Source: Candidatus Colinaster equi
GTDB taxonomy: Bacteria > Bacillota > Clostridia > Lachnospirales > Lachnospiraceae
Length of the DNA stretch: 64,000 bases
Reading direction: 5' to 3'
Assembly: GCA_018064425.1 (NCBI GenBank)
Contig: JAGHVF010000011.1
Coordinates: 1 to 64,000 of the forward strand
Shown: positions 25,376-39,856 of the stretch, in pieces
Numbering within the stretch: position 1 is the stretch's first letter
Layout: each line of letters opens with the position of its first letter
Notes under the pieces: generated by a model
The model's input: the letters and a program-made list of their open reading frames with translations, nothing else
The model's database searches: none
What the model was told of the DNA's origin: nothing
Position numbers and translations under genes: made by a program

Positions 25376-27067
25376 CTAATTTTTCAAATTTCTATGAAGA
25401 AGTTCATGCTCCTTACCGCAAATCACTTCATCATAAACCAACTTAAGATTAGGATTCTCACTTGTATATCTAACAGGTGTCATACGATCGGCTTTATAGA
25501 TTCCTTCTGTTCTTGCTGAACGTGTATTATGTCCTTCTTCATATGGCTGACCGCCGCCTAAAATACATCCGCGTCTGCATGCCATTACTTCAACAAAATC
25601 ATATTGAGCCTTACCGGCTTTTATATCCTCCAGCAATTGTCCGGCTCTTGCAAGTCCATGTACAATGGCAATCTTAACATCACGCTCGCCTACTTTTGCC
25701 GTAAGTTCTTTAAAATTATCATTTCCTCTCACGCCGGAAATACTGATTGCGTTGAGCGAATTATGACTCTTATCATCGGAAAGATGTCTTAGAACCGCTT
25801 CCGTTACGCCACCGGTAATACCAAAAATCGTTGCAGATCCGGATGCATATCCGAATGGCATATCTGCAGCTTCCTCAGCTATCTCCGAGAACTTGATTCC
25901 TACCTGTCTAATCATTCGAATCAATTCAACTGTTGTAATAACAATATCCGTATCCTGTCTGCCATTGGTAAAATTATCCGGTCTTAATATCTCAGCTTTT
26001 TTAGCTGTACATGGCATAATAGATACAACATAAGTTGTCTTTCCTTCTTCTTCGTCCTTCTTCTTAAAATACTCTTTTATTGTCGCTGACAACATTCCCT
26101 GAGGAGAACGACATGTAGATACATTATCGGCAAATTCCGGATACTTATTCTCAAGGAATTTAACCCATGCAGGACAACATGATGTGAACAGTGGCAGTTT
26201 CTCTCCGCTTTCCAATCTCTTAGCAAGCTCAGTACTTTCTTCAATAACTGTCATATCTGCGCCAAAATTAGTATCATATACTTCATCAAAGCCCATCATA
26301 CGTAATGCTGTCACAAGTCTTCCCATGCTATTCTCACCTTTGGGAATACCAAATCTGTCACCTACAGCCAAACGAACAGCAGGTGCAACCTGGGCAACTA
26401 CTCTTACATTAGGGTCATTAATTGCATCCCAAACTTCGGTAACATTGGTTCTGATAGAAATAGCTGCTGTCGGGCAAACCACTCTACATTGACCGCATCC
26501 AACACAATCTGTCTCGGACAGGCACTTATTAAACGCAGGTGTTACTTGCATTTTCGAACCTCTATATGCGAAATCAATAGCACCTACACCCTGTATTTCT
26601 GCACATGTACGCACACAGTCACCGCAAAGAATACATTTATTCGGATCACGTACGATACAAGGCGAGCTCATATCAAGCGGTAACTGCTCCTTGTTATTTA
26701 AGAATCTGACCGCATGAACGCCAACCTTGTACGCAAGACTCTGTAAATCACACATTCCGTTATTTGTACAGGTTGTACAGTCTCTGCAATGTGATGATAA
26801 AAGCAATTCAATAATAAGCTTACGATATTGCTGTAATTTTTTTGTATTGGTCTTAATAACCATACCCGGACGTGGTTGTTCTGAACATGAAGCAAATATT
26901 CTTCCTCTGTCATCTTCAACAACGCACATTCTGCACGCTCCGTATATTGACAGTTCTGAATGATAACAGAACGTCGGTATATCTATTCCCGCCTTACGAA
27001 TAACCGCAAGAATATTTTTCTCTCCCTCGATAGGTACCAAGCGGGAGTCAATTGTCATATATTCCAT
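25376..27067 (-). CDS. hydA: [FeFe]-hydrogenase catalytic subunit of an NAD(H)-linked (HydABC-type) enzyme
   Basis: H-cluster motifs TSCCPAWVKFLE, MPCTAKKAE and MACRRGCILGGGQP; N-terminal 2Fe-2S (CRMCVVE...) and 4Fe-4S ferredoxin motifs. Confidence 0.95.
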   Translation of the reverse strand: MEYMTIDSRLVPIEGEKNILAVIRKAGIDIPTFCYHSELSIYGACRMCVVEDDRGRIFASCSEQPRPGMVIKTNTKKLQQYRKLIIELLLSSHCRDCTTCTNNGMCDLQSLAYKVGVHAVRFLNNKEQLPLDMSSPCIVRDPNKCILCGDCVRTCAEIQGVGAIDFAYRGSKMQVTPAFNKCLSETDCVGCGQCRVVCPTAAISIRTNVTEVWDAINDPNVRVVAQVAPAVRLAVGDRFGIPKGENSMGRLVTALRMMGFDEVYDTNFGADMTVIEESTELAKRLESGEKLPLFTSCCPAWVKFLENKYPEFADNVSTCRSPQGMLSATIKEYFKKKDEEEGKTTYVVSIMPCTAKKAEILRPDNFTNGRQDTDIVITTVELIRMIRQVGIKFSEIAEEAADMPFGYASGSATIFGITGGVTEAVLRHLSDDKSHNSLNAISISGVRGNDNFKELTAKVGERDVKIAIVHGLARAGQLLEDIKAGKAQYDFVEVMACRRGCILGGGQPYEEGHNTRSARTEGIYKADRMTPVRYTSENPNLKLVYDEVICGKEHELLHRNLKN

Positions 27068-27085
27068 TTTCCTCTTTCCTCCTGC

Positions 27086-29005
27086 CTACTTAATCTTTAC
27101 AGCCTTAAATGCACAATTACCTTCACAGGCACCACATTTAATACATTTACTCTGGTCAATAACAAATGGTGACTTAATCTCACCGGAAATAGCACCAACA
27201 GGACAATTACGCGCACACTTTGAACATCCCTTACAAAGCGATGGATCGATTTCGTACGATCTGAGTGCCTGGCAAGTGCCTGTACGACATTTCTTATCCT
27301 GAATATGTTCAACATATTCATCCCTAAACACGCGCAATGTACTAAGTACCGGTAAAGCTGCACTCTTACCCAAACCGCACAAAGCAATATTTGTTATTGC
27401 CTCGCCCAATTCTTCGAGAATATCAAGCTGTTCCATGGTACCGCGTCCTGCAACAATATCTTCAAGAATTTCAAGCATTCTCTTGGTACCTTCACGACAA
27501 GGAACACACTTTCCGCAGCTTTCATTCTGCGTGAAATTCATAAAGAATCTTGCTACTTCTACCATACATGTATCTTCGTCCATAATAACAAGACCGCCAG
27601 AGCCAATCATTGCTCCACGCTTTTTAAGCGAGTCAAAATCAAGTGGCATATCAAGATCGGCTTCAATAAGACAGCCGCCCGACGGTCCACCTATTTGAAC
27701 AGCCTTGAACTTTTTACCATTCTTAATACCACCACCGATATCATATACGATTTCTCTTAATGTTGTACCCATCGGCACTTCAATAAGTCCTGTATTATTT
27801 ATACTACCCGTAACAGCAAAAGCCTTTGTTCCCGGGCTGCTCTCAGTTCCGATTCCATGATACCAATCCGCACCATTATTTATAATCATCGGAACATTTG
27901 CATATGTCTCAACATTATTAAGTACAGTAGGCTTGCCAAACAAACCTTGTTCTACAGTACGCGGCGGTTTTGTTCTCGGCATACCTCTCTCACCTTCAAT
28001 AGAAGCTGTAAGAGCTGAACCTTCACCGCAAACAAACGCACCGGCTCCACGATTAATATGAAGTCTGAAGCTATATCCGGATCCCAAAATATTATCACCA
28101 AGTAATCCGCATTCTTCTGCATCTGCAATAGCTTTCTTTAATCGCTTAATTGCAAGCGGATACTCTGCACGAACATAAATATATCCTTCCTGCGCAGCAA
28201 CGGCATATCCGGCAATAATCATACCTTCAATCATCTTATGAGGATCGCCTTCCATTACGCTTCGATCCATAAACGCTCCCGGATCGCCCTCATCACCGTT
28301 ACATACAACATAACGAATCTTTTCTTCCTGACGTGCAACCTGCTTCCATTTATATCCTGTCTGGAAGCCACCGCCTCCACGACCACGCAAATTGGAATCG
28401 TAGATTGTATTAATAACCTCTTCCGGGGTCATCTCAAAAAGTACTTTCTCCAATGCGGAATATCCACCGCACGCAAGTACCTCATCAATATGCTCGGCAT
28501 CAATATGTCCGCAATTTTTCAATACAAGTCTTTTCTGTTTTGCATAAAATGGTATATCTTCTTGAGCCTTATACTTTACACCGTCCATCTCATACAAAAG
28601 TCGCTCAACCGGTTTGCCTTCAAGCACAGTTGTTTTATAAATTTCCTCACAATCTTCCGGCTTGACTTTGATATACAAATAATTGTATGGCTCAATTCGC
28701 ATAAGCGGTCCCATCTCACAAAAGCCATGGCAACCGCTTCTTTTTACAGCAATTGTCTCCGGTTTATTTACAGGACAACTACCATCTGCATTATGTGCTA
28801 CACCTTCTCCAAATTCGACTTCGGCAAGATTATCTGCTTTAACCAGCTCGCACATTTTTTCATAAATCTTATCAGAACCGCCGGCCAAGCATCCGGTTCC
28901 CGCACAAATTAGTATTCTGCACTTATTTGAATCAATTCTTTCCTTAGCTGTCTTTCTTACTGCAGCCAACTCTTCTGCGTTATTTATTCTATTCATTGGC
29001 TTCAC
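27086..29005 (-). CDS. hydB: NuoF-like flavoprotein subunit (HydB-type)
   Basis: GRGGGGFQTGYKW, GEGSALTASIEG, ESCGKCVPCREG and C-terminal CKGCSKCARNCPVGAISG / CIKCGACEGNCAFKA. Confidence 0.93.
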   Translation of the reverse strand: MKPMNRINNAEELAAVRKTAKERIDSNKCRILICAGTGCLAGGSDKIYEKMCELVKADNLAEVEFGEGVAHNADGSCPVNKPETIAVKRSGCHGFCEMGPLMRIEPYNYLYIKVKPEDCEEIYKTTVLEGKPVERLLYEMDGVKYKAQEDIPFYAKQKRLVLKNCGHIDAEHIDEVLACGGYSALEKVLFEMTPEEVINTIYDSNLRGRGGGGFQTGYKWKQVARQEEKIRYVVCNGDEGDPGAFMDRSVMEGDPHKMIEGMIIAGYAVAAQEGYIYVRAEYPLAIKRLKKAIADAEECGLLGDNILGSGYSFRLHINRGAGAFVCGEGSALTASIEGERGMPRTKPPRTVEQGLFGKPTVLNNVETYANVPMIINNGADWYHGIGTESSPGTKAFAVTGSINNTGLIEVPMGTTLREIVYDIGGGIKNGKKFKAVQIGGPSGGCLIEADLDMPLDFDSLKKRGAMIGSGGLVIMDEDTCMVEVARFFMNFTQNESCGKCVPCREGTKRMLEILEDIVAGRGTMEQLDILEELGEAITNIALCGLGKSAALPVLSTLRVFRDEYVEHIQDKKCRTGTCQALRSYEIDPSLCKGCSKCARNCPVGAISGEIKSPFVIDQSKCIKCGACEGNCAFKAVKIK

Positions 29006-29471
29006 CTCTCAGTTCCTTTACCAGTGTTGATACCTTTTCAGGTGTCATAGCAGGATGAACCTCATCATTAACAGTAAGTGCAGGTGCCAATCCACATGCT
29101 CCCAGGCACGAAACAGTCTCAACCGTAAACATCATGTCATCCGTAGTATGCTTATCCTTGGACAACCCCAACTCCTCATACAATTTGCTTAATATTGTAG
29201 ACGATTTACGTACATGGCAAGCCGTTCCATCGCACACCTTAATAACATATTTACCCTTTTGTTCAAAAGAGAAATTCTCATAAAATGTAGCAACACTATA
29301 GGCTTTTGCTTCCGTAACACCAATCTCTTTAGCCACATAGGTGAGAAGTTCCGGAGCCAAATATTTGTATTCAGCCTGAATATCCTGCATGATTGGTATT
29401 AATGCAGCCTTTGTCTTACCATGGATATTAATTATCTCATCCACTTTTTGATAATAACTTTTGTCTAACAT
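28989..29471 (-). CDS. hydC: NuoE-like 2Fe-2S subunit (HydC-type)
   Basis: KVCDGTACHVRKS...VSCLGACGLAPALTVND thioredoxin-like 2Fe-2S motif. Confidence 0.93.
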   Translation of the reverse strand: MLDKSYYQKVDEIINIHGKTKAALIPIMQDIQAEYKYLAPELLTYVAKEIGVTEAKAYSVATFYENFSFEQKGKYVIKVCDGTACHVRKSSTILSKLYEELGLSKDKHTTDDMMFTVETVSCLGACGLAPALTVNDEVHPAMTPEKVSTLVKELRGEANE

Positions 29472-29485
29472 AGTTCCTCCTGTGC

Positions 29486-31168
29486 CTATTCTCTTTCAGC
29501 TTTCATATTCTTCTTCATAGCATACATTCTGTCATCGGCAATTTTCATAACAGTATGTCTGTCGTATGGATGTGCTTCATCGCTGTAGGATACACCATAA
29601 GCAGCGCTGACAACGAATTGATAGCCGCAATTGTTCTTTAATTCAATTGTTGTTTCATATATCTTAAGCATTCGCTCAATTTCTTCTCTATCACAGCCGG
29701 GCACAATAACCGCGAATTCATCACCGCCCATTCTGTATGCGATGGATTTTGTACCAAAGCTTTGTGATATTGTTTCAGCAAAAACAATCAATAATTGATC
29801 GCCCGTTTCATGTCCCATGCTATCATTTGATTTCTTCAAGAAATTCAAATCAAAAGAAATCAACGTATATTCTTTACCACCTTGTTCTATTTCCAAAATA
29901 TCTTCATTAAACTTAGCTCTGTTATTCAAAAGAGTAAGCTGATCGGTAAACGCAATTTTTAGTAAAATATCTCGTTCCGTCTTATCCTCAACTTGCCTAA
30001 TCAGTTCAACACATATCTCATAAATCATGAAACCTGTGAATATTATTCCGCCCCAACTGCTCAAGCCAACCATACCGCTAAACCAGCTAAGATAATATTT
30101 TCCCAAATTGAAGACAACAATATCATACCCAACACATAATGCCAGCAAACCTGCTCCTAACAGCATTCTGCTTTCCGATCTGCGTCGTCCCGATAACCTA
30201 TAATACAATCCCGAACCAATATAGTATATTATTCCAATCAAATCCAATATATGAAACGGAATCAACATTGCAACAAAATGTACGATATTAAGCAGATGTA
30301 AAACAATTGTTACAACGATAAGAAGTATATTGGCACAAAGTAAAATCTCCAAAGTAACATTAAGGAATTTGTTCTTAGCATCCCTACGCATATGTTTAAG
30401 GAACAAGAAGACCGGAATCATGCCAACATATACAGAGAAATATTCAACTAACATAGTCAGCATTCTATTACCGCTAAGCATTCCAAGTATCGGAACATTT
30501 GTAATTGTCCAGCCGCCAATAATGAAAGCAAATATTCCCGTATACACAAGTGGCATACCGTCAGCATTGCGTCCTATCATTAATATACCCAGCAAAGTCA
30601 ATCCCAAACTAAAAAGTATCAAGAACGTTCCACATAATACCTGTGGCATATATTCACCCAATATATCCAAATGGACATCCGCTGCATCATCAATAAACGG
30701 TGTATTAATATTGGTCCAGGCATCGTTCTCCGAAAACAAGAACTTAACGCGTAATTCCTTGCCTGATGAATCTGCAGGAAGATTAATATAATTGTATCCT
30801 CCCAAAATCATTTTTCCGCTTTCAAGTTCGCTCATTCCGTATGAGAAAATGAATTCATCATCAACATAGACGCTGTAAGCAGAATGATATACATCCAAGA
30901 CAAGAATCGGTTCAATATAATCAAACTCGGGAATTGTACATATAATATCTATCACATCACCCTTGTCGGTTGCATCAAAAGAAAGCTTATCAAGAATCAC
31001 ATCTTCATAAACTTTATCATTAATTTTCACGTCCCACTTATCGTTTAAGACAATCGCATTCTCTAAGCCCGGAAGCGAAAAGAAATAGCGAAAAACAAAC
31101 AGTGTTATCGCAAAAACAATAAGTGAAACAAAATATGAACCTATTCGTACTTTATCATTTTTACTCAT
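29486..31168 (-). CDS. Membrane diguanylate cyclase (extracellular jelly-roll-like + multi-TM + GGDEF)
   Basis: YRMGGDEFAVIVPG and DQLTLLNNRAKFNEDI; N-terminal TM, about 130 aa extracellular segment, then about 7 TM helices. Confidence 0.9.
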   Translation of the reverse strand: MSKNDKVRIGSYFVSLIVFAITLFVFRYFFSLPGLENAIVLNDKWDVKINDKVYEDVILDKLSFDATDKGDVIDIICTIPEFDYIEPILVLDVYHSAYSVYVDDEFIFSYGMSELESGKMILGGYNYINLPADSSGKELRVKFLFSENDAWTNINTPFIDDAADVHLDILGEYMPQVLCGTFLILFSLGLTLLGILMIGRNADGMPLVYTGIFAFIIGGWTITNVPILGMLSGNRMLTMLVEYFSVYVGMIPVFLFLKHMRRDAKNKFLNVTLEILLCANILLIVVTIVLHLLNIVHFVAMLIPFHILDLIGIIYYIGSGLYYRLSGRRRSESRMLLGAGLLALCVGYDIVVFNLGKYYLSWFSGMVGLSSWGGIIFTGFMIYEICVELIRQVEDKTERDILLKIAFTDQLTLLNNRAKFNEDILEIEQGGKEYTLISFDLNFLKKSNDSMGHETGDQLLIVFAETISQSFGTKSIAYRMGGDEFAVIVPGCDREEIERMLKIYETTIELKNNCGYQFVVSAAYGVSYSDEAHPYDRHTVMKIADDRMYAMKKNMKAERE

Positions 31169-33335: not shown

Positions 33336-33467
33336 AAATGTGTAACCTCCTATTGTGTGCTTTAAGTCTTTTCCCCTAAAAAACTTATGCGATAATTTTA
33401 ACAAATTATCGCACAATTCACAATAGTATTATTTACTTGACGGATTATTGTATTTATTTTCAGACTT

Positions 33468-36047
33468 TTACAAAGATTTAATCAGCAATTCATATTCGGC
33501 TGCCGGGATAGGCTGTGAATATAAGAATCCCTGTATAACATCACATCCCATTTGCTCAAGGAATTCGGCCTGTTCGTTGGTTTCAACGCCTTCGGCAATA
33601 GTTTTCAATCCTATTGTATTTGCCATATGAATAATGTATTCAATAATCTTTGTACCCTTATCCATATTAGTATCGCCACGTAAAAAGCCCATATCAAGCT
33701 TAAGGATATCAAGCGGCATATCTTTTAAAACATTGAGTGATGAATATCCGGTTCCAAAATCATCCATCGCAATTTCAAAGCCCATATCCCTAATTCTGTT
33801 TACTCTCTCAATAATGGCATCCTGATCCGCCATATATGCCGATTCCGTTACTTCAAAATGCAAATACTTGGTATCAATATTATACTCATCCTTGAATCTG
33901 TGAATGATACCGATAATCTCATCATCAACCAAACTCATTCGTGAAACATTAACAGAAATCGGTACCATCGGAATGCCTTCATCCATCCATTTTTTTATAA
34001 GTATAAATGCACTCTTCCAAACATGTCTGTCAAGTTCCTTAACAAAACCGTTTTTCTCAAAAATTGGTACAAATATAGCCGGAGAAATAATAGTTCCATC
34101 CTTTTTTACCCATCTCGAAAGGACTTCCGCTCCAACCAATTTATTGGAAGCATGATTAAACTGCGGTTGTAAATATATAACAAATTCACCATCAGCCATT
34201 GACTGCTTCATTTGTTTGGTTATTTCCGAATCAAGGATTATCTCCGTATGAATCGCATCGTCAAAATATCTAAAATCATTATGAGATCTGTCAGTAATCT
34301 TTGTCATTGCATAAGTACAATAATCAAGAATCTTACCGACCGGCACCTCATCTCCCGGCACTGTCTTATACACACCGGCTCTTACGGTAACAGGGAAATC
34401 GACACCCAAATGTCTATAATCATATGTCTCTGTTTCTTTCAATTTTTTAGCTTTTTCAGATGTATTCAAATAGCAAAAGCCAAAAAATCCGCCACCCAAT
34501 CTACAGCACAATCCGCCGTCACCGATGAATTCACGCATATAATTTGCAAAATTAACAAGTACCGCATCTCCGACGCTACGGCCGTATAATCTGTTTATTA
34601 CCATTACTTTATTAATATTGCACACGCCGAGCACATAACTTCTGTCTTTATGAGTGCTTAATAAATGCTCAACTTCAGGAATAAAACGTGCCATATTAGG
34701 CAATCCCGTCAACATATCAATATATACCTGACTTTTAAGCTCATCATTCAGATAATGAATGCAATTCTCCATTTTGGCATATCCGCTTGCAACAGCCTTT
34801 GCCATCTCAACGCATGTCGGATATCCGCAGAACTTACAATTGATATTTCTCTTGGCTTGTGTATCCTTATGCATTCTCTCAAAAATTGCTTCATATGCTT
34901 TTTGCGGTACAATATACGGTTGTCTGTAATTCTCGGAAAATTCACGGGTAAAATCAAAGAAATTGAGCGATTTAAATTTGGCACACAACTCCTCATAGCG
35001 TTCCTTATAATCCTTAGAATCCTCCAACTGTTTATAAACATTGTGGCTGCGCTCAGCAAATCTTTCATATACTTTATTGTAATTAAATCCGGGCGCATCT
35101 ATTCCTCCGCCCATCAAGCAGCCCATAGCACACGCACTGATTTCCGTTAACATCGGATGTTGTTCCCACTCTTCGTTTATGCCTTTTTGCTTGCAAAACG
35201 GAGCAATCATTTTCTCATCAATATGATCAAAATTGGTAAATACTTCCGTCGACGGGAAGTATCTCTCCACCATTCTTCTGAATACACCGTTTGAACATAT
35301 CAATCTTCCTTCGGTTTCACATTTGTAATCAGGTTTGGAATAATATCTGTCAAAATCTATCTCGCGCAAATAATCCATCAAGTGCGCAATTGTCACATTA
35401 TACAGAATGCTCTTAAATGTTTCATTCGAAGATGTCTCATCAGTCATAGCAATACATGGTCCGAGATATGCAATCGGATTAGTATCTTCCAAATATTTTC
35501 GAACATATATTGCCGTACATATTGCAGGGGTCTGAACCGGAATAATATACGGCAGCATCTCCGGATTACATTTCTTTGCATAATTTGCCACTGCCGGGCA
35601 AATATGTGTAATAAATGCTTTTGGCTTTGTCTCGGACTCTTTATATTCCTTCAAATATTTAGCATGAGCCCACACGCTGATTTCCGCGCCTATTCCAACA
35701 TCATATATTTTATCTACACCAATTGTACGCAAATATCCGATTAATTTGTATGCTGTCTTACCATACAACATATAAAATGTAGGATCGATAATAACAGATA
35801 TTTTCTTACCGTTCTCCAAATCCTTAAAGAAAAACAATGTATCATCTCTGTAATCTCTGGCTCCGTGTGAACATTCTCTTATACAATTTCCACATTCGAT
35901 GCATTTTTTACCGGAAACCTCAATGCAGTTTTTGCCTTCCGTTTTGCCATTAACATTTGTTCCGACAACAGGGCACGAAGCAACGCATCTGTTACAGGCT
36001 ATGCAATTTTTATTGGTTGTAATAACACCATCATTATATCTTGACAT
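33468..36047 (-). CDS. Sensory [FeFe]-hydrogenase-like domain + 4Fe-4S (PF04060-like) + degenerate GGDEF + EAL fusion
   Basis: 2x ferredoxin (CIACNRCVASCP, CIECGNCIRECS); H-cluster-type THICPA / LGPCIAMTDE / SACAMGCLMGGG; CKFCGYPTCVEMA; RLGGGFFGFCY in place of GGDEF; GAEVLSRW, SVNVS, DDFGTGYSS, AEGVET and QGFLYSQP of EAL. Confidence 0.88.
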   Translation of the reverse strand: MSRYNDGVITTNKNCIACNRCVASCPVVGTNVNGKTEGKNCIEVSGKKCIECGNCIRECSHGARDYRDDTLFFFKDLENGKKISVIIDPTFYMLYGKTAYKLIGYLRTIGVDKIYDVGIGAEISVWAHAKYLKEYKESETKPKAFITHICPAVANYAKKCNPEMLPYIIPVQTPAICTAIYVRKYLEDTNPIAYLGPCIAMTDETSSNETFKSILYNVTIAHLMDYLREIDFDRYYSKPDYKCETEGRLICSNGVFRRMVERYFPSTEVFTNFDHIDEKMIAPFCKQKGINEEWEQHPMLTEISACAMGCLMGGGIDAPGFNYNKVYERFAERSHNVYKQLEDSKDYKERYEELCAKFKSLNFFDFTREFSENYRQPYIVPQKAYEAIFERMHKDTQAKRNINCKFCGYPTCVEMAKAVASGYAKMENCIHYLNDELKSQVYIDMLTGLPNMARFIPEVEHLLSTHKDRSYVLGVCNINKVMVINRLYGRSVGDAVLVNFANYMREFIGDGGLCCRLGGGFFGFCYLNTSEKAKKLKETETYDYRHLGVDFPVTVRAGVYKTVPGDEVPVGKILDYCTYAMTKITDRSHNDFRYFDDAIHTEIILDSEITKQMKQSMADGEFVIYLQPQFNHASNKLVGAEVLSRWVKKDGTIISPAIFVPIFEKNGFVKELDRHVWKSAFILIKKWMDEGIPMVPISVNVSRMSLVDDEIIGIIHRFKDEYNIDTKYLHFEVTESAYMADQDAIIERVNRIRDMGFEIAMDDFGTGYSSLNVLKDMPLDILKLDMGFLRGDTNMDKGTKIIEYIIHMANTIGLKTIAEGVETNEQAEFLEQMGCDVIQGFLYSQPIPAAEYELLIKSL

Positions 36048-36059
36048 AAGAGGCTCCTT

Positions 36060-37181
36060 TTATTCGAAAACAGCTAAAATCATCGTCTGATTAAGATGCT
36101 CGTATTCATATTGTTCTCCATAACCGGAGAATCCGATATAGGTTCCATATTCGCTAAGTACTTCGACAAAATCACCCATTATTTCCTGTTCGTTAAAATA
36201 TCTTGTTCGTGACAAGCAATTAACAACAATCGAAAATGACGGATTTACCACCTTTGTTTTAACAGCATTAGCTGTTCTGTTCCATACTTCTTTGGGATCA
36301 TCCGGCTCCAGTAAAACAAGCTTTGAATAATTATGAATACGTGAATAGTATGATAACTGTCCATCCGGATATACAACATTGTGCTCTGTAATATAGATAT
36401 TGTCACCGTCAATTCTGCCTACCGGATGCATAGATGTATAATTAAACAGCTTGTTAACAGGCACGCCTAAGGCTGCCGCAACAACCTCCGCCGCCGGTCT
36501 GTTATTATATTCATATACTGTTCTGTCGTCACAATCAACATCTGTTGCAACCATAATATGTTCTGTAGGCTTAAACATATTTTCCTTGAAAAGTCTTATC
36601 TTTCCATGCGTATTCTTAATAATGACAAATGCGCACGCATCATTGTATACTATGCCGTTTAGTGCTACAAAAGATGCATTTATTCCGTCAGGCGCACCTG
36701 CTGTACCACCAAAAATCGGAATTTGCTTCTCAGCAAACGTTATCTTAAACGCATCCATTATCAGTTCTTCGCCACCGCTGAATGCAGTTGTAAATTCAAA
36801 GCAGCATGTATTATCAAGGTTCTCACCAATCTTATCTATGGCATTTCTTATGGTCTCTTTATATCGTAGCGGATATCTGTCAATCTCCAAAATGATGCCT
36901 GATGCAATCTCAATACCTGAATAAATTGCAAGCGCAGTAACTGCATTAGGATTATATCCCTTTGACGAAAGAACAACATACGAAGACATTCCGATAACGG
37001 TTGTATTCGGAAATGCTTGAGCCAAATGACGTGAAAACCACGTGAAATTCAAATAATCCGTTGTAAAAAAGATAAGCTTCGGAGCTTTTTCATCTCCGTC
37101 TTTTTGCAGAGTTTTCTTAATCTCCTCCATTGCAACTGCCGTATCTTTTGCATCACTAAAAGCAATTCTTGTTCTGTCCAT
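36060..37181 (-). CDS. FIST N/C domain sensory protein
   Basis: LIFFTTDYLNFTWFSRHLAQAFPNTTVIGMSSYVVLSSKGY...IPIFGGTAGAPDG...YEYNNRPAAEVVAAALGV...FNEQEIMGDFVEVLSEYGTYIGFSGYGEQ: FIST-like order. Confidence 0.85.
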   Translation of the reverse strand: MDRTRIAFSDAKDTAVAMEEIKKTLQKDGDEKAPKLIFFTTDYLNFTWFSRHLAQAFPNTTVIGMSSYVVLSSKGYNPNAVTALAIYSGIEIASGIILEIDRYPLRYKETIRNAIDKIGENLDNTCCFEFTTAFSGGEELIMDAFKITFAEKQIPIFGGTAGAPDGINASFVALNGIVYNDACAFVIIKNTHGKIRLFKENMFKPTEHIMVATDVDCDDRTVYEYNNRPAAEVVAAALGVPVNKLFNYTSMHPVGRIDGDNIYITEHNVVYPDGQLSYYSRIHNYSKLVLLEPDDPKEVWNRTANAVKTKVVNPSFSIVVNCLSRTRYFNEQEIMGDFVEVLSEYGTYIGFSGYGEQYEYEHLNQTMILAVFE

Positions 37182-39511: not shown

Positions 39512-39856
39512 TTATTGTTTCTGTGCATTATTTATCGTCTGATAAATCTCAATTCTCTGAGAATCCATCTCCGGCATACCAATAAATATCGCACCATAAT
39601 CAAATGTATCATCTCTTTTGACAATACGAACAATCTCCATAAACGAATGAATAACTTCCTTTGTCCAAATAGTAAGAAAGCCTTCATACACTGCACCGAT
39701 TTCCAATTTCTCTGTGCATGCAAATCCTACTCCCGCTTTGGATACATCAGTAATTTCAATAGCAACCTCTTTTGCCTCAGACACACCGTTTAACTGCTTA
39801 ATAATAAGTCTTGATGTAAGTTCGGTTCTCTCAGCTTTTCTCTTCTCGCTTCCCAT
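39512..39856 (-). CDS. PilZ domain c-di-GMP-binding protein
   Basis: RKAER (RxxxR) followed by DVSKAGVGF ([D/N]xSxxG); 114 aa. Confidence 0.88.
   Translation of the reverse strand: MGSEKRKAERTELTSRLIIKQLNGVSEAKEVAIEITDVSKAGVGFACTEKLEIGAVYEGFLTIWTKEVIHSFMEIVRIVKRDDTFDYGAIFIGMPEMDSQRIEIYQTINNAQKQ

Follow-up and report, generated by a model that had tools for sequence, protein, structure and literature searches.

The window (the whole stretch of DNA that was analysed, 64,000 nucleotides) encodes, on its minus strand at 33468..36047, a putative sensor-phosphodiesterase of 859 amino acids with the domain order Fer4-Fe_hyd_lg_C-FeS-GGDEF-EAL. All five domains score above their Pfam cut-offs (E-values: Fer4_10, 8e-7; Fe_hyd_lg_C, 1.3e-23; PF04060, 5.4e-9; GGDEF, 8.4e-15; EAL, 2.3e-64). 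An earlier, sequence-only reading of this DNA had placed the gene exactly at this open reading frame, leaving out its strand, and the motifs that it picked out in the translation are all present (THICP, LGPCIAMTDE, EISACAMGCLMGGG, CKFCGYPTC, GGGFF and, in the EAL domain, EVL, NVS, TES, DDFGTGYSS and AEGVET). Two [4Fe-4S] ferredoxin motifs (residues 1-66, 35850..36047, minus strand as for all features of the gene), with Cys15/18/21/25 and Cys49/52/55/59, precede an [FeFe]-hydrogenase-like H-domain (PF02906; residues 82-320, 35088..35804), which is followed by a PF04060 FeS domain containing CKFCGYPTC (residues 402-430, 34758..34844; Cys404/407/412/429), a degenerate GGDEF domain (residues 438-595, 34263..34736) and an EAL phosphodiesterase domain (residues 610-850, 33498..34220). 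Within the H-domain, alignment places Cys150 in the L1 motif THICP (residues 147-151, 35595..35609), with Ile149 at the proton-transfer Cys299 position; Cys198 in the L2 motif LGPCIAMTDE (residues 195-204, 35436..35465), with Gly196 at the Met353 position and Met201 at the Lys358 position; and Cys306 and Cys310 in the L3 motif EISACAMGCLMGGG (residues 302-315, 35103..35144), with Ser304 at the Met497 position, while Ala175 occupies the Gln325 position. The alignment bears out the claims that the four H-site cysteines are present, that the proton-transfer Cys has been replaced by Ile and that the Lys of MPCxxK has been replaced by Met.

A structure model of the window protein (AlphaFold, 30 sequences) reached a mean pLDDT of 88 and backed both of the proposed halves, with Foldseek matching the C-terminal half to the GGDEF-EAL structures MorA, PA0575 and DosP (3e-32); for the N-terminal half, its matches were [FeFe]-hydrogenases, CbA5H among them (1e-18). 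Modelled alone, the N-terminal 436 residues gave a pLDDT of 90 and a pTM of 0.90 and matched CbA5H, TmHydABC and CpI with a query TM of ~0.65 (Foldseek); the geometry of the cysteines at the cluster sites is predicted from this fold match and the alignment. Full-length relatives that share the domain order are ~31-45% identical, and, given these relatives and the structure model, the protein is far beyond chance. In the output region, GGGFF (34482-34496) departs from the GG(D/E)EF signature of an active cyclase, which is degenerate in nearly all members of the branch to which the protein belongs (see below), and the EAL catalytic motifs (E of EAL, N, E, DD, K, E, and Q) are present and conserved in the branch (28 relatives), so that c-di-GMP phosphodiesterase activity is expected from the sequence. 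The pairing of a degenerate GGDEF with a catalytically complete EAL, as first read from the motifs, was confirmed by Pfam, the branch alignment and Foldseek.

Relatives were collected from a survey of 250 Lachnospiraceae genomes and from a scan of named genomes that added more. The N-terminal module of the window protein is carried by ~52 of the 250 genomes, and the proteins that share it are mostly MCP fusions, with others being kinases or kinase-receiver hybrids. In a quick maximum-likelihood tree with a long outgroup branch, the sequences related to the window protein (33, including that of the window, with near-duplicates removed; hereafter, the EAL branch) form one side of a split with a support of 92, apart from the MCP and kinase relatives, and the Roseburia-type EAL relatives form a branch of their own (nine sequences, support 100). 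Hosts of the EAL branch belong to the Lachnospiraceae, the Oscillospiraceae and rumen Treponema, including three T. bryantii isolates, and an added far C-terminal PAS domain occurs only in the Treponema members. The Fe_hyd_lg_C domain occurs in three proteins of the window genome (2.33 Mb, 84% complete): an A3-like HydA encoded in the hydCBA operon of the window, the sensor-phosphodiesterase, and an MCP-fused paralogue with the same N-terminal module. That paralogue (G000:C57, in the same genome) and other MCP- or kinase-fused Lachnospiraceae relatives (e.g., L002/L063) are 30-37% identical in the shared module, but differ in an invariant Lys358 and pocket, in the lack of a FIST neighbour and in their MCP, kinase or kinase-receiver outputs. 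The Roseburia-type relatives (L046, L168-L176, L179) have the same five-domain architecture as the window protein, but, besides their separate branch, they keep the Lys, have no FIST neighbour and occur with HydG in five of seven checked genomes.

The sensor gene has a conserved operon partner that did not figure in the sequence-only reading. Immediately upstream, at 36060..37181 on the minus strand, lies the gene for a NosP-like protein of 373 amino acids with FIST N and FIST C domains (Pfam, NCBIfam), and the 12-bp gap that follows its stop codon contains the GGAG ribosome-binding site of the sensor gene (36054..36057, minus strand). Within the EAL branch, 28 of the 33 members have a FIST gene directly upstream on the same strand (gap of -14 to 180 bp, mostly <75), and no FIST neighbour was found for any of ~104 MCP, kinase or Roseburia-type relatives, some of whose loci end at contig ends. 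This distribution is strong evidence for a functional FIST-sensor pair. The window FIST protein and 27 relatives share conserved Cys127, Cys183, Cys217, Cys322, His252 and His362 (window numbering), possibly a metal, heme or thiol site, and a PDB sequence search with the window FIST protein returned no relative. Near the pair, at 39512-39856 on the minus strand, a weak PilZ-like protein (19.9 bits, below the cut-off) is a possible c-di-GMP receptor. A terminator-like hairpin of 14 pairs with a T-run lies 3' of the sensor gene (33385..33416, minus strand), as a consensus match only in a scan whose count equalled the shuffled mean.

Across the EAL branch, the cluster ligands are fixed and the residues of the [2Fe] pocket vary freely. 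All 16 cluster-ligand cysteines (eight ferredoxin, four PF04060, and H-site 150, 198, 306, and 310) are invariant in the 33 members, bar a Ser306 in one of them (L078), and Cys150, Cys177, Cys198, Cys310 and Glu204 are almost invariant in the H-domain. Cys177, an extra cysteine near the Gln325 position, hardly varies anywhere in the sensor family. In CpI, Lys358 and Gln325 touch the CN/CO ligands of the [2Fe] subcluster, and altering Lys358 hampers its retention. Within the EAL branch, the CpI Lys358 position holds eight different residues (R8, K7, I6, M4, N3, Q2, H2, and S1), such that Lys is gone in 26 of the 33 members and Met201, which the sequence-only reading had singled out, sits at an unconstrained position, whereas in the MCP, kinase and Roseburia-type relatives the position is Lys in 104 of 104 and Pro354 is likewise invariant. 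The Gln325 position is never Gln within the branch, the Pro354, Ala230 and Pro231 positions are relaxed, and the column-entropy percentiles are high (Met497, 91; Cys299, 85; Gln325, within 85-91); the 104 other relatives, by contrast, have a constant Pro at the Cys299 position and a constant Leu at the Met497 position. The hydrogen-bonding residues that stabilise [2Fe] are conserved in sensory enzymes (PMC10055695) and are not conserved in the window protein, where Met201 and Ala175 take the Lys358 and Gln325 positions. Overall divergence is greater in the EAL branch (mean H-domain identity of 0.35 vs. 0.57 among the other relatives), so part of the pocket variability is general divergence. 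The cysteines of the H-domain, however, are unmoved, and the neighbouring cluster and EAL domains are far better conserved (identity to the window protein of ~51-53% for the Fer4, FeS and EAL parts and of 35% for the H-domain).

The maturases of the H-cluster are missing from most of the carriers. HydE, HydF and HydG were not found above cut-off in the window genome, in the congener G213 (99% complete) or in the carriers G206, G241 and G249, and HydG and HydF were not found in the three T. bryantii isolates and 16 further carriers. Of 31 checked EAL-branch carrier genomes, mostly drafts and including that of the window, 23 lack both HydG and HydF, and BLAST searches with a Lachnospiraceae HydG agree with the HydG absences. 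The cleanest case is G249, which has no maturase and no other intact hydrogenase-domain protein, has lost one H-site Cys, and keeps the FIST-EAL pair. HydG is above cut-off in 111 of the 250 Lachnospiraceae genomes, where it has no association with the wider sensor family (25/52 vs. 86/198, p = 0.64), and within the EAL branch maturase presence has no significant link to the retention of Lys (p = 0.16). Missing maturases were considered as proof that no H-cluster is made and were rejected as such because some genomes without maturases still keep a canonical, intact-motif HydA, and HydG is lacking from several genomes that have HydF or HydE. The absence of HydEFG counts against an H-cluster and is not decisive.

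The reading that we favour, at somewhat better than even confidence, is that the window protein is an Fe-S switch responding to redox or gas, likely without a full H-cluster, which controls c-di-GMP hydrolysis together with the FIST protein. Its observed basis is the domains, the conserved operon, the conserved cysteines, the variable [2Fe] pocket, the absent maturases and the intact EAL. We infer that the protein is soluble and cytoplasmic and that its Fe-S clusters and the FIST partner gate its c-di-GMP phosphodiesterase activity. Four clusters are proposed for the N-terminal half, which would keep the hydrogenase fold: a [4Fe-4S] cluster in each of the two ferredoxin motifs, another [4Fe-4S] cluster where the H-cluster once sat, and one in PF04060, with the [2Fe] subcluster most likely absent. 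The signal would be the redox state or the integrity of the clusters, set by electrons from ferredoxin or by O2 or NO attack, and a change in the clusters would alter the linker between PF04060 and the GGDEF domain and so turn the EAL phosphodiesterase on or off, with the degenerate GGDEF acting as a GTP-binding or structural relay and not as a cyclase. The FIST protein encoded in the same operon would touch the sensor and bind a ligand of its own, either heme/NO as in NosP or some other small molecule.

A broader proposal is more tentative and falls a little short of an even chance: that bacteria independently made an [FeFe]-hydrogenase sensor into a [2Fe]-less Fe-S signalling module that sets c-di-GMP with a FIST co-sensor, and that the vacated pocket, with Cys177, may bind another ligand. 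Nar1 sets a precedent, having the hydrogenase fold with [4Fe-4S]H and no [2Fe] (PMC12621388). As an analogy only, Nar1/IOP1, a eukaryotic CIA protein, resembles the favoured reading in these features and in the absence of the maturases, but serves in cluster trafficking and not in signalling.

A rather unlikely alternative is that the FIST protein is the real sensor, of heme/NO or a small metabolite, and that the hydrogenase-like half serves mainly for docking or for checking that the clusters are intact, which would make the pair an anaerobic equivalent of the NosP type of c-di-GMP control. NosP-type FIST proteins regulate c-di-GMP-linked partner signalling proteins (PMC12570481), binding and regulating partners without a sensor of their own, and the window FIST protein shares with NosP both FIST domains and a position beside a c-di-GMP-linked signalling gene, here in a tight conserved operon. 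However, its match to the NosP model (151 bits) is far under the NCBIfam NosP cut-off of 450 bits, and the fixed Cys set of the sensor speaks for a role of the clusters themselves. The window FIST protein also differs from NosP in its partner, an Fe-S EAL protein and not a kinase. Members linked to FIST tend to have lost the Lys, Lys358 being retained in four of the five EAL-branch members without a FIST neighbour vs. three of the 28 with one (p = 0.004), which is a lead only because relatedness is uncorrected; on this lead, some of the sensing may have passed to the FIST protein while the H-site was changing.

The sequence-only reading had proposed a sensory hydrogenase, H-cluster-competent and coupling H2 or redox state to c-di-GMP hydrolysis. 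A group-C-like sensory ancestry fits, with the window protein sharing with group C and TmHydS the 2x[4Fe-4S] N-terminus, an H-domain with four H-site cysteines, the C-terminal FeS (PF04060) and the loss of the proton-transfer Cys, and with TmHydS the Gly and the Ser that stand in place of Met353 and Met497, respectively. In a true H2 sensor, a complete H-cluster would oxidise H2 and reduce the relay and PF04060 clusters, setting EAL activity. We judge this unlikely, though the four kept H-site cysteines are in its favour, as are the HydABC encoded in the same window and the Lys retained by L162, L165 and L167 in genomes with HydF or HydG. Further, changes at Cys299, Met353 and Met497 alone do not prevent [2Fe] binding in TmHydS (PMC10055695), and the Gly/Ser pair of the window protein (P0001) is the same as in TmHydS (PMC8163306); this tolerance and the shared pair count against the [2Fe]-less reading. 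On the other side stand the loss of Lys358 and of Gln325, the member that lacks one H-site Cys, the carriers without HydG and HydF, and the independence of the wider sensor family from HydG. The claim of H-cluster competence for H2 sensing is not supported by these data, and the H2-sensor reading is weakened. With the Fe-S sites kept, the [2Fe] pocket mostly lost and the partner gene nearly always present, an Fe-S switch is likelier than a true H2 sensor. Simple relay models are already questioned by TamHydS, in which the redox state of the C-terminal cluster is unchanged by H2 (PMC13104023). That the H-domain is a decaying relic and only the EAL domain matters is very improbable, since, although the H-domain has changed more quickly than the cluster domains on either side of it and one member has lost an H-site Cys, four cysteines and Glu204 are almost invariant in that same domain.

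HydDB divides the [FeFe] group C into C1 (histidine-kinase), C2 (chemotactic) and C3 (phosphatase-linked) and lists the NiFe group 2c as putatively linked to a diguanylate cyclase (PMC5037454); a GGDEF-EAL output of a sensory [FeFe]-hydrogenase-type protein is not listed. Compared to group C, the window protein has this output in place of a kinase, MCP or phosphatase, no PAS between the FeS domain and the output, neither the Lys nor the Gln of the [2Fe] pocket, a FIST operon partner and, mostly, no maturases in its carriers. The NiFe group 2c shares the proposed link from a hydrogenase-type sensor to c-di-GMP, but is an unrelated NiFe enzyme connected to a cyclase rather than a phosphodiesterase. 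In the open-licence literature, no paper was found that describes an EAL domain fused to an [FeFe]-hydrogenase or that links FIST to a hydrogenase, nor were tests of an H2 response found for the HydDB-listed [FeFe] sensor outputs (kinase, chemotaxis, and phosphatase). The conserved operon of FIST, hydrogenase-like and EAL parts offers a soluble single-enzyme readout, by which H2, redox or NO/O2 sensing is directly testable. If the favoured reading is true, counts of 'sensory hydrogenases' in gut and rumen metagenomes may take in proteins that bind no H-cluster.

A plasmid search returned no match spanning most of the sensor protein. In the same window, a membrane-type GGDEF cyclase (29486-31168, minus strand) is encoded 14 bp upstream of hydC; a conserved link between such a cyclase and hydCBA was rejected, with no match in the hydABC loci of 10 relatives. 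Intact-motif HydA or HydABC occurs despite no detectable HydG/HydF in the window (25376-29471, minus strand) and in G213, G241, G260 and G262-G264, with HydE likewise absent where tested, and in the genomes with HydABC the HydA is ~75-79% identical to that of the maturase-positive relatives G255, G258 and G193. HydF is present and HydG was not found in G232 (single contig), G272, G274, G083 and G134, the last two of which also have HydE. Many Lachnospiraceae group-A-like HydA (L102-L117, L122-L125, and L128-L138) have TSCSP, which puts a Ser at the [4Fe-4S]H ligand Cys300, and an open frame of G213 (C24, L224) joins a HydA-like domain (TSCCP, with TPC for MPC) to rubredoxin-/rubrerythrin-like sequence.
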